A DNA stretch of 43,346 bases from positions 1 through 43,346 of the forward strand of contig NZ_LQAQ01000088.1 of assembly GCF_001583495.1 (NCBI RefSeq), given 5' to 3'. Below, one piece after another: positions 13,506 to 43,346 of this stretch (its first letter is position 1; each line of letters opens with the position of its first letter). The notes beneath the pieces were generated by a model. That model saw nothing but the letters and a program-made list of their open reading frames with translations, made no database searches and was not told where the DNA came from. This stretch comes from Flammeovirga sp. SJP92. GTDB taxonomy: Bacteria > Bacteroidota > Bacteroidia > Cytophagales > Flammeovirgaceae. Both the position numbers and the translations under genes were made by a program.

Positions 13506-13670
13506 ACGTGCTTATCAAGAATGGCAGAGAGAACGGGCTCGTAGATGCCATGGCAACCGTTGTTCCCAGCGAAAGGTGCCAAGTCCCGCTTCGGAAGTGT
13601 CCGAGAAAGATGAGCTAAATGCATTCGTTCAAGAATGATTATCTCGAAAAATTATTAAGCACGTTTTTAT
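13506..13670 (+). ncRNA. SAM-I (S-box) riboswitch controlling metH
   Basis: The leader has the SAM-I core in order: P1 5' strand GCTTATC (13510-13516) with CAAGA, then AGAGAACGGGC, GATGCCATGGCAACC (13543-13557), AAGGTGCCAAGTCC (13573-13586), GAAAGATGAGC ending in the P1 3' strand GATGAGC (13609-13615). P1 matches the GGCUUAUC/GAUGAGCC pairing of known aptamers. The 5' segment ACGTGCTTA (13506-13514) is also exactly complementary to TAAGCACGT (13656-13664), which is followed by TTTTAT, so an alternative fold competes with P1. Riboswitches of this family usually lower expression when SAM is abundant, which suits a methionine synthase. Confidence 0.92.
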
Positions 13671-18666: not shown

Positions 18667-19383
18667 ATGAACACTAACAATTACAGTAAATCTTTCTATT
18701 ATTTTGTAGGGATTGCATTTTTATGGATTCCCATCTTATTTTTTGACTCTCCTTACTTTGATGAATATTTCTTCGATGGGAAAATAATCTCCACAGTATC
18801 TGTTTTAAGCATATTTGTCATCATATTCTTCTTGTCGTCATTACGTATTCGATTTTTAATGACAGTCATGGTGCCTTTGTCATGGTTAGGTGAAATGTTG
18901 TGTTGTGTATGGATGGATATGTATGATTACAGAGGTGGACAAATTCCGATGTATGTGCCCTTTGGTCATGCTGTAATATTTGCATTGGGATGGAATATTA
19001 CTCAAAAAAGCCCAATTCTTGCCAACGCCCTTCAATTCAAAAAATGGATGATGGGTTTTTATATTTTACTTTTCGCAGTAGTAATTTTATACTTCAAAGA
19101 CACATTGAGTTTAGCCCTAGGAACATTATTCTTCTGGGCCTTATGGAGAAGAAATTACATGCCCTTTTACCTTGTAATGAGTGCATTGGTGTTATATTTG
19201 GAAATAATCGGAACGTATTACGGAGTATGGAAATGGGATAAAAAACAGTGGATCTTCCAAACTGTCAACCCACCCATAGGAGCCATGTTTATTTATATTG
19301 GCGGTGATATGATTTTAGGCAGATTATGCAGGTATTTGTTAAAGGTTCTAAGGAAAAGAAAGGTCGTTTATGTGAGAAATTAA
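18667..19383 (+). CDS. Multi-pass membrane protein of unknown function
   Basis: A 238-residue protein with about six to seven hydrophobic segments. Polar conserved-looking motifs sit in or between the helices: GEMLCCVWMDMYDYRGGQ, YVPFGHAVIFALGW, EIIGTYYGVWKWD and NPPIGAMFIYIGGD. The arrangement of Glu, Trp and NPP-G motifs in a small multi-helix protein is seen in several integral membrane enzyme families, including carotenoid-modifying ones, but I cannot assign one. The C-terminus is strongly basic (KVLRKRKVVYVRN), which suggests it lies inside the cell. It is followed at 19.44 kb by one copy of the dispersed two-hairpin element. Confidence 0.65.
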   Translation: MNTNNYSKSFYYFVGIAFLWIPILFFDSPYFDEYFFDGKIISTVSVLSIFVIIFFLSSLRIRFLMTVMVPLSWLGEMLCCVWMDMYDYRGGQIPMYVPFGHAVIFALGWNITQKSPILANALQFKKWMMGFYILLFAVVILYFKDTLSLALGTLFFWALWRRNYMPFYLVMSALVLYLEIIGTYYGVWKWDKKQWIFQTVNPPIGAMFIYIGGDMILGRLCRYLLKVLRKRKVVYVRN

Positions 19384-19443
19384 TTATTATGATTAGTCAA
19401 TAAGAGATCTATCTAATTGTCTCAATCGCATAAAGCCTCCAAC

Positions 19444-19515
19444 TGTTCGTGATGTCAAGCCGAAAGGCGTCATTACGAATTTTAGAATTGTATAAGTTTG
19501 AAACTTATAACAATA
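19444..19515. repeat. Dispersed two-hairpin element, copy 1
   Basis: Hairpin A: TTCGTGATG (19446-19454) pairs with CATTACGAA (19471-19479) through nine positions including one G-T, and encloses an inner GCC-GAAA-GGC stem-loop. Hairpin B: TATAAGTTTGAAACTTATA (19491-19509), 9-bp arms. It has the same layout and similar spacing as four copies at 41.7-43.3 kb, where the stem bases differ but pairing is kept. It lies between two hypothetical genes. Confidence 0.7.
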
Positions 19516-19603
19516 AAATATATCCATGATTTCTTAAGTGAAGGATCAAAAACAAAACAGTAAATAACTAATTGAAAACGTAATCTAAGAACTATTAGAA
19601 AAT

Positions 19604-20017
19604 ATGAAGAGTAATGAAGTTAGTACGATGATATTTGAGGCTTTAGAATATCTGGCGCCAATAAAAACGCCTTTGGTGGATATGCTTTCAGGAAAAAATA
19701 TTTATGGCCGCCCTCCATTTCTTAGATTTAGATTTGATATTCCAGATGAAAATGACGAATTATATATAAAGGTTGAAAATATAATAAGTAATTATCATGG
19801 GAAATTGAAATGGATCTTGATTAGACGGAAAAATAATTATTTCTTGATGCCTTTTCTTTTATCAAAATACATAGATTCACCTTCATTTCTTAAGCAAGGT
19901 TTCCTTTCTCATGAACTGGGGGAATTTAAGTACAAAGAGATTATTGACCAGGCAATTGATGATATTCCACTTCTAGCTAGTTTGATCATTGAAAAATCAA
20001 ATATATCAGGTCAATAA
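19604..20017 (+). CDS. Hypothetical protein
   Basis: Not recognised. A 137-residue soluble protein, moderately charged, with an N-terminal helix (SNEVSTMIFEALEYLA), a strand-rich middle (LRFRFDIPDENDELYIKV, LKWILIRRKNNYFLM) and a C-terminal helix. It overlaps no neighbour. A hypothetical membrane-protein gene starts four bases after its stop, so the two are probably co-transcribed. Size, orphan character and position beside the dispersed repeat resemble the small genes of the second island. Confidence 0.6.
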   Translation: MKSNEVSTMIFEALEYLAPIKTPLVDMLSGKNIYGRPPFLRFRFDIPDENDELYIKVENIISNYHGKLKWILIRRKNNYFLMPFLLSKYIDSPSFLKQGFLSHELGEFKYKEIIDQAIDDIPLLASLIIEKSNISGQ

Positions 20018-20020
20018 CTG

Positions 20021-20263
20021 ATGAAAAGAGAACTTATCAAATCACTCATCATTACAGTTCTAATTATTGTAATCATTCTGATTGGAGACATATTTCAAGT
20101 TCCTTTTCTAAGTGACTTTTTCTTTTACTTAGTTATTTTACCATCAGCGTATAGTTTTTCAGAAGGGCCTTTAATAGGCACAATTATTTACTTAGAACCG
20201 TTTATTCTATGGGGAATTATTTTTCTTTATAGTATTTTCTCAACTAAATTGAATATTCAATAA
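20021..20263 (+). CDS. Small hypothetical membrane protein
   Basis: Not recognised. An 80-residue protein with two or three hydrophobic segments (SLIITVLIIVIILIGDI, FFFYLVILPSAYSF, FILWGIIFLYSIFS) joined by short loops. It starts four bases after the preceding gene stops and ends 13 bases before the uracil-DNA glycosylase gene. That makes a compact three-gene unit. Confidence 0.55.
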   Translation: MKRELIKSLIITVLIIVIILIGDIFQVPFLSDFFFYLVILPSAYSFSEGPLIGTIIYLEPFILWGIIFLYSIFSTKLNIQ

Positions 20264-41280: not shown

Positions 41281-41415
41281 TTAATGATAAGAAAAAACTT
41301 TGTAAGTCATAATAAATGCTATGTGAAATACTACAACCCATTTGGTATGAATATGGTGGGTATTGAGAAGGAAGGTACGCCGGATCAAAAAATATTAATC
41401 ATATTTAAATTATAG
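41281..41415 (+). pseudogene. Fragment of an RHS-repeat core
   Basis: The plus-strand frame through 41329-41391 reads YYNPFGMNMVGIEKEG and then TPDQK. This matches the YYPFGM...G.....PD.K(F/Y) segment that, in RHS/YD-repeat proteins of Bacteroidota, stands just before the YNGKE motif of the conserved core, where variable toxin tips begin. The match then breaks off, and a stop follows at 41413. No start codon or rest of the RHS protein is present. It looks like a displaced core fragment left by exchange of toxin tips. Confidence 0.5.
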
Positions 41416-41429: not shown

Positions 41430-41669
41430 ATGCCAGGAATAAAATGTAAATGTGGGAATGTAATTAAGTTTGGAGAAATTCCGAATTCTAATGAATGGCT
41501 ATTTATATCTGATGTGGAATATGATAAATATTCAGGTAATGTAGATTCTGAAAAATTATATATGGATTTAAAAAGTATGCTTATTTGTCAGAAATGTAAA
41601 AGAATTTGGATTTATTGGAATGGTTATGATAATGCTCCCACTCCTTATAAATTAGATGTTGATAATTAA
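41430..41669 (+). CDS. Small zinc-ribbon-like hypothetical protein
   Basis: A 79-residue soluble protein. Two cysteine pairs, C6/C8 (IKCKCGN) and C53/C56 (ICQKCKR), are spaced like a zinc ribbon. The segment between is acidic (SDVEYDKYSGNVDSEKLY) and the end has aromatic residues (IWIYWNGYDN). No family is recognised. It directly follows an RHS-core fragment and precedes a copy of the two-hairpin element, so an immunity or accessory role next to a lost toxin is possible. That is context only. Confidence 0.65.
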   Translation: MPGIKCKCGNVIKFGEIPNSNEWLFISDVEYDKYSGNVDSEKLYMDLKSMLICQKCKRIWIYWNGYDNAPTPYKLDVDN

Positions 41670-41710
41670 TTTCTACTATTCCGAATTTCCAGTTTTTTAT
41701 TGCAAATCCA

Positions 41711-41845
41711 GTTCTGAAGTTATGAGTGTTAGTTTCACTTAGAACTAGGCTATAGAATAAGTTTCCAACTTATAACTTCAAATAAAAAAGAAGATAGGTA
41801 AAACATAAAGGTCAATTTTTGATAACTATACATTCAAAATTGACC
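41711..41845. repeat. Dispersed two-hairpin element, copy 2 (with conserved tail)
   Basis: Hairpin A: GTTCTGA(A)GT from 41711 pairs with ACTTAGAAC ending at 41745. Hairpin B: ATAAGTT-TCC-AACTTAT (41757-41773). The tail AAACATAAAGGTCAATTTTTGATAAC continues as in copy 5. The inverted repeat GGTCAATTTT (41810-41819) / AAAATTGACC (41836-41845) closes the element. Confidence 0.75.
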
Positions 41846-41982
41846 ATTATCTACTTTTATGTAGAAAGTTGTATTTGGGAGTTCAAATCATCAGGGGATT
41901 TTACGAATCCCACTTCATTATCAACCTGAAGATGGTCCATCAAATTCATCACGTAAAAATGAACATAAATCAAAATAATAAT

Positions 41983-42582
41983 ATGAAATATACAGATCAA
42001 AATAAGTTTAATAAATTAAGAAATTGTATTGTAGATAACCATGTTGATTCTTTTAAAAAAATAATTGACTCTGAAATTAGTAATAGAAATATCCTAACAA
42101 TAATTGATGAGTATACTAATCAATCATTATTACATAAGGCAACTTTTTTTAGAAATCTAGAAATAACAACTTTTTTGTTAGAACAAAATATACCAGTCAA
42201 TACCCAAGATTATAAAGGCTTTACATGCCTTCATACCTTTGTGCAAGGTATGGAAAATAGCTTCGTATTTAAGCCAAAGTTAAGAAATGAAGATTATATT
42301 TTATTTCATCAACTTATAGAAAATGGTGTAAATCTAGACATTAAAAATGATTACGGAGTAGGGGCTTTGTCATTAGCTATTTTTACTTGGCGAAGGGGAA
42401 AGTGTGATTATGATCTCGTAGAATTATTTTTGAATCAATCTACAAATATTGAAGAAATGGAAGAACGAATTAATTCTTATAATGAGCAAATAAATGATTC
42501 AAAAAATGAAGGAGCTATAAATAACATTATTCATATTAGAGATTGTATTCAAAAAAGGATAGACGAGCTAAAAAAATTATAG
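41983..42582 (+). CDS. Ankyrin-repeat-like protein
   Basis: A soluble protein of about 199 residues from the ATG at 41983 (MKYTDQNKFNKLRNCIVD). The frame is open back to a TTG at 41869, with further ATGs at 41932 and 41959. Ankyrin-type units can be followed: NQSLLHKATFFRNLEITTFLLEQNI (about residues 42-66), PVNTQDYKGFTCLHTFVQ, and LIENGVNLDIKNDYGVGALSLAIF. A coiled helical tail follows. Ankyrin proteins bind other proteins, and in toxin islands they often act as immunity proteins. Flanking copies of the two-hairpin element and the nearby RHS fragment fit that, but no partner toxin is visible. Confidence 0.65.
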   Translation: MKYTDQNKFNKLRNCIVDNHVDSFKKIIDSEISNRNILTIIDEYTNQSLLHKATFFRNLEITTFLLEQNIPVNTQDYKGFTCLHTFVQGMENSFVFKPKLRNEDYILFHQLIENGVNLDIKNDYGVGALSLAIFTWRRGKCDYDLVELFLNQSTNIEEMEERINSYNEQINDSKNEGAINNIIHIRDCIQKRIDELKKL

Positions 42583-42887
42583 ATGTTTAATAATACTTCC
42601 ACCGTTCCGAGTGTTAAGTGCTAGCGTCACTCGGCTATTGAATAAGTTTTCAACTCTATACTTTGTTCGAAGATTATAAAAAACCTCAATATTTAATAAA
42701 AGCACTTCCTGGTCAATAAAAGAAGAAAAATGTATATTATTATTATTTTAAATTCTCTGAGAAAATCATACCTATTTATAATTTTATTCATGGTAAAGTT
42801 ATACTCTGATATTATTCCAATAAATGAAGGTTTTTTATTGGTATTATCATTTTTAGAATTATTTCAGTAATAATAGATGATAAGTAT
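42583..42887. other. Gap after the ankyrin-like gene
   Basis: 305 bases holding hairpin-element copy 3 (42607-42660) and a 46-codon hydrophobic ATG frame at 42730-42870, which ends inside the region of the next gene and may be its displaced 5' part. Nothing else is visible. Confidence 0.45.
42607..42660. repeat. Dispersed two-hairpin element, copy 3
   Basis: Hairpin A: CCGAGTG (42607-42613) pairs perfectly with CACTCGG (42628-42634). Its stem sequence is unlike copies 1, 2 and 5, yet it is paired. The loop TTAAGTGCTAGCGT aligns with TCAAGCCGAAAGGCGT of copy 1. Hairpin B is shortened: AAGTT-TTC-AACT. Confidence 0.65.
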
Positions 42888-43106
42888 TTGTTGACATTTT
42901 GTGATAATAAAAAATATAAAATAAAATATTATTCTATGTTTAAAAAGAGAGTTATGTATCTTGATAGATTTGAATCTATTGATATTAAACAAACTAACTT
43001 TTTTTTCACAATTCAAGAGATAACAATCAACGGAAAAAAAGAAAATACTTTTTTTGTTATTGATGAAGAGTTACAAGAGGAATTAATGAAAAAGTTAAAT
43101 CTCTAA
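42730..43106 (+). pseudogene. Possible frameshifted small membrane gene
   Basis: Two consecutive frames carry coding-like sequence. The first, from ATG 42730 to 42870, encodes a membrane-type N-terminus (KSYLFIILFMVKLYSDIIP, then GFLLVLSFLELF). The second has no ATG at its head. It is open from 42828, with a possible TTG start at 42888, and reads IIIFRIISVIIDDKYLLTF then a basic soluble part ending EELQEELMKKLNL at 43106. They overlap by about 40 bases around a run of six T (42831-42836), a typical slippage site. Either the gene is broken by one frameshift, or there are two tiny genes. Function is unknown. Confidence 0.4.
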
Positions 43107-43109
43107 TTA

Positions 43110-43168
43110 CTCTATGTGTTAAGTGTTAGTGTCACTCAGAACTCTCCAATTGATTAAGTCTTTGACTT
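43110..43168. repeat. Dispersed two-hairpin element, copy 4
   Basis: Hairpin A is weak (TCTATGTG opposite CACTCAGA, six of eight paired). Hairpin B reads AAGTC-TTT-GACTT (43156-43168): compared with AAGTT...AACTT in the other copies, both sides of the stem have changed together. It follows the stop codon of the preceding gene by a few bases. Confidence 0.65.
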
Positions 43169-43216
43169 ATAGTATTATGTAAGAAAGAAAATAATAAGAT
43201 ACACTCTCTTCCCCCA

Positions 43217-43346
43217 CTGTTCTGTGTATCAAGCCGTCAGGTGTTACTTAGAACTTGTCTATTGTATAAGTTTCCAACTTATAACATCAAATTAAAAAAG
43301 AGGATATGTTAAAACATAAAGGTTAATTTTTGATAACAATATAATA
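43217..43346. repeat. Dispersed two-hairpin element, copy 5 (runs off the window)
   Basis: Hairpin A: GTTCTGTGT (43219-43227) opposite ACTTAGAAC (43246-43254), eight of nine paired, with an inner GCC/GGT. Hairpin B: TATAAGTT-TCC-AACTTATA (43265-43283). The tail AAAACATAAAGGTTAATTTT matches copy 2. The element is cut by the window end. Confidence 0.7.

Follow-up and report, generated by a model that had tools for sequence, protein, structure and literature searches.

A two-hairpin intergenic repeat of Flammeovirga as a probable atypical REP element of subclass 2.6 RAYTs

The window analysed here is the whole stretch of 43,346 nucleotides of contig NZ_LQAQ01000088.1 (positions 1 to 43,346, forward strand) from the assembly GCF_001583495.1 of Flammeovirga sp. 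SJP92, referred to below as the host. It carries five copies of an approximately 75-nt two-hairpin element, two of them intact (19444 and 43217) and three decayed. These elements are very probably atypical two-hairpin repetitive extragenic palindromes (REPs) that are recognised by REP-associated tyrosine transposases (RAYTs) of subclass 2.6 and moved as doublets in trans. Copy 1 starts about 60 nt past the stop codon of a 238-aa gene (18667-19383). The other four lie at 41.7-43.3 kb, all in one orientation, among small genes and a remnant of an Rhs-type core, and none of the five (0/5) is part of a recognised inverted doublet. The copies and the features around them are the following.

19444..19516, + strand: element copy 1, intact, subfamily I; hairpin A at 19445-19480, hairpin B at 19488-19513; z -4.8
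41329..41394, + strand: Rhs-type core remnant at the start of the array stretch, read from the sequence; the same peptide occurs in reading frames of sister arrays
41430..41669, + strand: 79-aa gene, possibly of immunity type; no Pfam family above cut-off
41710..41787, + strand: element copy 2, decayed, about 40-50 nt past the 79-aa gene; 36.5 bits
41788..41909, + strand: spacer also found next to elements of the sister Rhs arrays, with a partial repeat at 43298-43340
41932..42582, + strand: ankyrin-repeat gene, 216 aa from ATG (PF13637, 8.5e-8)
42595..42667, + strand: element copy 3, hairpin A intact and hairpin B decayed, about 22 nt past the ankyrin gene; 27.5 bits
42888..43106, + strand: doubtful small open reading frame (ORF) of 72 aa with a TTG start and without a family
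43100..43184, + strand: element copy 4, hairpin A decayed, directly past the doubtful 72-aa ORF; 45.2 bits
43210..43296, + strand: element copy 5, intact, subfamily I; hairpin A at 43219-43254, hairpin B at 43262-43287; 84.7 bits, z -2.9

A sequence-only reading of this window had proposed five copies with one shared fold and covarying stems, each following a small gene. All five are present where it placed them and are recovered by R1, a covariance model built from 32 better host copies that were aligned with MAFFT and given a structure written by hand; 19444 and 43217 are training copies of this model and the other three are not. R1 scores copy 1 (as 19436-19522) at 93.8 bits. With RNA folding alone, the described fold is taken only by 19444 (z -4.8) and 43217 (z -2.9), and 41711 favours a different fold (z -2.6), 42607 retains only hairpin A (z -1.1) and shuffled sequences fold at least as well as 43110 (z +1.6). 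The shared fold thus stands for the two intact copies, while 41711, hairpin B of 42607 and hairpin A of 43110 are decayed. Likewise, the placement after a small gene applies to four copies, the 72-aa ORF before 43110 being doubtful, and not to 43217, which directly follows the previous copy.

The proposed search for further copies with a covariance model was productive. BLAST of the host genome with the best copy gave 46 matches at E<=10, the weakest of which are probably due to chance, and a search of the 8.49-Mb host genome (G000) with R1 gave at least 135 at E<=1, a lower bound from scoring 150 of 4841 candidates. In 569 kb of host loci, a smaller search space, 169 matches were detected at E<=0.02, and the best 150 of these 169 were aligned. 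The repeat is short, palindromic and intergenic by simple ORF calls, and occurs in many copies per genome. Across 58 genomes, with at most 76 candidates scored in each, all 9 Flammeovirga genomes, host included, were positive with at least 22 to 73 matches each. Outside the genus, 4 of 49 genomes gave 1 to 3 whole-genome matches (best E 4.3e-6), a small number because R1 is tuned to Flammeovirga; short searches restricted to RAYT loci are more sensitive there than the whole-genome search.

In the consensus of subfamily I, CCCACTGTTCGTAGTGTTAAGCCGAAGGCGTCACTACGAACT is separated by about 7 nt from TTGTTTAAGTTTGTAACTTATAACAA, which follows it. The stem of hairpin A is 10 bp long, with a small asymmetric internal loop and a short GC-rich tip, and the shorter hairpin B follows about 7-12 nt downstream; per-pair counts show an AGT/ACT step conserved in both. 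The base adjoining the stem is T in 147 of the 150 aligned copies, the base before it is C or A in 146 and never G, and the third base 5' of the stem is G in 3. Clustering divided the 150 copies into subfamilies I (66, with small side clusters), II (72), III (7) and IV (5). Four window copies are among the 150, three of them assigned to subfamily I, the copy at 42595 being the one outside the set, and 19444 shares the CTGTTC stem of that subfamily. As a separate observation, a dispersed repeat of about 350 bp on host contig C116 (L130:12776-13125) opens with a subfamily-III-like element; as a query it returned 51 to 59 rows each in the sister genomes G003, G004 and G005, ordinary element matches included, and it is present in high copy.

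The covariation of the stems, for which the five window copies are a weak basis because three are decayed, holds on larger sets. Among the 32 MAFFT-aligned copies, 91.5% of cells pair compared to 85.4 in shuffles, two-sided changes occur in 46 cells compared to 14.8, and the covariation score is 0.234 compared to 0.134 +/- 0.008, each of the three being matched by 0 of 500 shuffles. There was no excess in this set of pairs with a two-sided change (6 vs 5.8 in shuffles) or of further pair types (16 vs 17.9). In a control with slid partners, 29-50% of cells pair. In the 150 model-aligned copies, an alignment that leans towards the structure, all five measures lie above all 500 shuffles, with two-sided changes at 23 of 25 pairs and a score of 0.416 vs 0.169. 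Neither result that the sequence-only reading had named as refuting it was therefore encountered.

For the identity of the repeat, the sequence-only reading had pointed to REP/RAYT mobile repeats as the nearest known concept, and it advised a search for a tyrosine HUH transposase with the element on its flanks. Such a gene exists in the host outside the window, and the idea gains support from it. Contig C62 (49870-50421) encodes a 183-aa RAYT (NF047646 'REP-associated tyrosine transposase', 106 bits, cut-off 80). One element lies 63 nt from it at 49721-49807 (+) and another 7 nt from it at 50428-50512 (-), both with their tails towards the gene. The same tails-inward layout, at distances of 2 to 77 nt, was observed at G004:C457, G005:C202, two G006 loci, G008:C1:1327k and host C93:113k. 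Elements also lie on both sides of the host C61 RAYT, the nearest on either side being +, and two RAYT remnants have an element on one side at 136 nt (host C93:567k) or on both sides at 261 and 94 nt (G001:C1:3990k). In total, an element lies within 350 nt of the RAYT at 17 of 18 distinct Flammeovirga loci checked, a set that includes G004:C24 and six further named Flammeovirga loci and in which L090 and L168, being the same locus, are counted once. IS200-type Y1 transposases, so assigned from their reading frames, were considered as owners of the elements and are not supported, with 0 of 9 checked loci carrying an element in their 1.5-kb flanks; the same flanks of L098 and of the fragment L093 likewise contain none.

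In fold, the RAYT is a Y1 HUH protein like the REP-binding nuclease of E. coli (structure 4er8). Passages of PMC6006769 give the signature of subclass 2.6 TnpAREP proteins as NH[LIV]H, WQ, YIH[QN]NP and about 179 aa, and nine aligned RAYTs agree with it in having NHIH, NHVH or NHLH, WQ, and a length of 182-184 aa. YIHQNP or YIHNNP is present in RAYT lineages 2 and 3, and lineage 1 has D at that position (YIHDNP, one YTHDNP). Protein distance and flanking-element distance are strongly correlated across 14 Flammeovirga RAYTs (r 0.916, Mantel p 0.0001), with a p value that overstates independence because same-block loci across species may be orthologous. Four RAYT-element blocks can be distinguished: the C62 type, with elements that begin CTGTT (next stem base C or T); C61 and OC4 contig 5, with TATCGCAAGTG elements; the OC4 contig 12 type, with CTAGCGCAAGTCTT or CTAGCGCAAGTGTT elements; and the C93:113k type, with CTAGCGCAAATG elements. 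The host genome holds three of the four together, and among the host RAYTs read there is no partner for subfamily IV.

Linkage to RAYTs extends to other genera. R1 gave 66 matches at E<=1 when applied to 80 Bacteroidota RAYT loci, chosen as the best among at least 472 confirmed relatives. Once the 7 Flammeovirga loci are set aside, 45 matches remain. Of these, 39 fall no farther than 350 nt from the RAYT, a zone that makes up 9.0% of the bases, and 32 of the 39 have the tail towards the RAYT gene. When the 39 were folded without the model, 34 had at least two hairpins and 33 had z<=-2; L189 and L219 have a single hairpin, and the weak matches L161, L176 and L209 are without hairpin A. Inspection by eye of 32 elements from other genera showed T next to the stem in 27.

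Neighbouring copies less than 150 nt apart mostly form tail-to-tail doublets (30 of 40, with 4 head-to-head and 6 direct), and a larger local list gives tail-to-tail in 40 of 50 adjacent pairs. In subfamily I, doublet copies are nearer the consensus than singles (0.827 vs 0.783, p 0.006); in subfamily II the corresponding values, 0.803 vs 0.786, do not differ significantly (p 0.13).

The sites turn over between close species. In a set of 11 orthologous sites, 7 are polymorphic, 3 are shared and one (L117:14545) is counted to neither group. The frr site has a doublet in the host and none in G004, where the flanks are nearly continuous, the only near-clean empty site. The hemE and hutH sites carry a doublet in G000, G004 and G005 and are without it in G003; at C116:54945, C93:94968 and L117:17871 the element is present in some species, and in others the same gap contains a different hairpin-rich repeat; and window copy 19444 is common to G000, G003 and G005 and absent in G004. 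At C116:62696, L117:7537 and L117:13038 the element is common to all species located. Two further observations were made at such sites. Another multi-hairpin repeat, GTGCACCATAG...CTATGGGCAGGTGATAC...GTATCACCTGCCC, occupies intergenic sites of the host element in sister species (L291-L294) and also adjoins the host element at L117:13038. In addition, G003 carries two other small genes in place of the two-gene segment that lies at 19540-20240 of the window, between copy 19444 and a uracil-DNA-glycosylase-like gene; a DNA match indicates the same segment exchange in G005, and the genes on both sides are conserved.

Several results weigh against REPs moved by RAYTs, in addition to the shared ancestry of same-block loci mentioned above. 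The canonical GTAG or GTGG foot was not found 0-2 nt 5' of the stem in the 150 copies, where the T next to the stem and the C or A before it therefore exclude it. A nearby R1 match exists at only 26 of the 73 non-Flammeovirga RAYT loci, R1 finding nothing near the RAYT at the other 47, and in a two-flank comparison of 59 of the 80 RAYTs many R1-negative loci carry other repeats on both sides. For the F. pacifica RAYT at G007:C1:2161601-2162152 the closest element is at least about 4.3 kb away, and none of the insertions could be resolved to a fixed target sequence. Finally, 61 of 135 copies are single, and of the 57 singles with both neighbours called, 42 are downstream of a same-strand gene at a median of 49 nt (21 of the 42 between convergent genes), and 5 of the 57 lie between divergent genes; these are rough figures because they depend on simple ORF calls and because some singles have a diverged partner.

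This placement is also what a role in 3' untranslated regions would give, that is, an RNA feature such as an mRNA stabiliser, attenuator or terminator maintained by selection on the transcript. Terminator-like hairpins follow some copies, and covariation suits RNA as well as DNA. However, in the 30 of 40 adjacent pairs that are tail-to-tail one member faces against transcription, and the orientation bias of the 31 singles in tandem-gene gaps is modest, 21 pointing with the genes and 10 against. Furthermore, element types track RAYT lineages and are found beside RAYTs in several genera, closely related species differ in which sites are occupied, and Rfam has no match to the repeats at the gathering threshold. 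We regard such an RNA role as improbable.

The small-gene stretch of the window has counterparts in sister species, where Rhs-core fragments, small genes and elements alternate (G004:C87, G001:C2:272-290 kb and G007:C1:1290-1306 kb). The elements of these arrays all point one way, 8/8, 4/4 and 7/7, respectively, in the direction of most reading frames; the conserved spacer is present in the G004 array and part of it in G007, and four array frames (G004, G003) match TIGR03696 Rhs_assc_core at 58-72 bits (cut-off 32.5). In sister species, fragments of the Rhs core were noted in arrays together with small genes, probably of immunity type, at L275, L276, L278 and L279. The array copies probably spread with their modules and not by transposition. 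One could go further and suppose that elements once moved by RAYTs now act mainly as passive homology blocks, through which Rhs-type arrays grow or are swapped by homologous recombination. The common direction of all 19 elements (8+4+7) among repeated Rhs-core fragments in the three arrays, and the decay of three of the five window copies, are in keeping with this; a detectable Rhs core occurs within 2.5 kb of only 5 of the 150 aligned host copies, three of these five being window copies, and the proposal accounts for array copies but not for doublets. We rate it slightly below even the RNA role. The same count led us to reject Rhs arrays as the home of most copies in the host loci, and because of it the Rhs association is a side story.

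The one-directional copies, 4/4 in the window and throughout the three sister arrays, together with the two-gene segment after 19444 that differs in two sister species, would also suit attC-like sites of an integron-type cassette array. None of 15 host matches exceeded the cut-off of the TIGR02249 integron integrase in this draft genome, and neighbouring copies genome-wide are mostly inverted pairs. An attC site is one long imperfect hairpin, unlike the two hairpins found here. We give this explanation almost no credence.

Elements recognised by RAYTs thus remain by far the most probable explanation, and the process would be as follows. The mobile unit is most likely the tail-to-tail doublet, corresponding to a REPIN (a REP doublet forming hairpins), whose single-stranded form would expose four hairpins. 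Acting on single-stranded DNA, the RAYT, a Y1 HUH protein, would bind the element hairpins, make its cut close to the conserved 5' foot (C or A followed by T, immediately 5' of the stem) and mobilise the doublet in trans. The structure with its covariation, the copy number, the doublet orientation, the linkage and matching to RAYTs and the differences between species are observed here; binding, cutting site, strand, target choice, the single-strand route and mobilisation in trans are inferred from the E. coli and Pseudomonas systems. Solitary copies, those of the window included, would be doublet remnants or would have been carried along when neighbouring modules were duplicated. A more elaborate version, which we consider rather unlikely, is that Bacteroidota RAYTs read hairpins A and B together as a bipartite signal, giving four sites per doublet, and that in Flammeovirga such elements now serve as fixed boundaries of accessory modules, Rhs-type and other, and aid module exchange.

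Elsewhere in the window, the only Rfam matches at the gathering threshold are a cobalamin riboswitch (2455-2656) and a SAM riboswitch (13509-13616). A 3249-aa reading frame at 31343-41092 matches Big_13 and PKD-like domains in its first 1000 residues, and its end resembles a type IX secretion sorting tail.

The REP/RAYT kind, subclass 2.6 RAYTs and the atypical nature of their repeats are already in print. In titles and abstract openings, the supplement of PMC6006769 and most subscription journals being outside reach, we found neither a two-hairpin REP nor REPs of Flammeovirga, nor a description of the cross-genus recurrence, the foot or the RAYT-element pairs. For the poorly described subclass 2.6 RAYTs the present element is a specific candidate substrate: it has two hairpins and a foot of its own, occurs beside RAYTs of several Bacteroidota genera and is matched to RAYT lineage. 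This makes RAYT recognition outside Proteobacteria directly testable, natural RAYT-element pairs within one genus serving as built-in swaps, and accounts for a large class of the repeats that lie between genes in Flammeovirga.

Among known systems, CGTC-tagged repeats, as the passages of PMC3733652 covered here describe them, are short palindromes, often dimers, that are reported also in Bacteroidetes, as here. They carry an unpaired CGTC end tag and no RAYT flanked by them was found, whereas in the present element CGTC is inside hairpin A and RAYTs are flanked. The E. coli REP/BIME (bacterial interspersed mosaic element) system with TnpAREP (4er8) shares the Y1 HUH fold, a bulged hairpin and a 5' foot beside the stem, and differs in the foot sequence, the extra hairpin B, the RAYT subclass and the phylum. 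The REPINs of Pseudomonas fluorescens SBW25 are inverted doublets and the likely mobile unit (PMC3116915, in part). As in Flammeovirga, there are several repeat groups, each beside its own RAYT, and singlets are more decayed than doublets, which is clear here for subfamily I only; the Flammeovirga monomer, unlike theirs, has two hairpins and no GTGG or GTAG foot. The closest relatives are the repeats of subclass 2.6 TnpAREP/RAYTs (group 5 of Bertels) of Bacteroidetes, which the relevant passages of PMC6006769 describe as having 'atypical secondary structures', weaker in their folding and found by hand, so that the family the sequence-only reading did not recognise is in part a described one. 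The main text of that paper does not mention Flammeovirga, and its subclass 2.6 passages hold no two-hairpin plan, its supplementary Table S1 lying outside this statement. Shared with subclass 2.6 as described there are the RAYT signature (NHxH, WQ, YIHxNP, about 180 aa), Bacteroidota hosts, repeats that flank the RAYT with copies elsewhere in the genome, and the lack of a GT[AG]G foot; what sets the Flammeovirga elements apart from that description is their two-hairpin plan and the fact that intact copies fold well.
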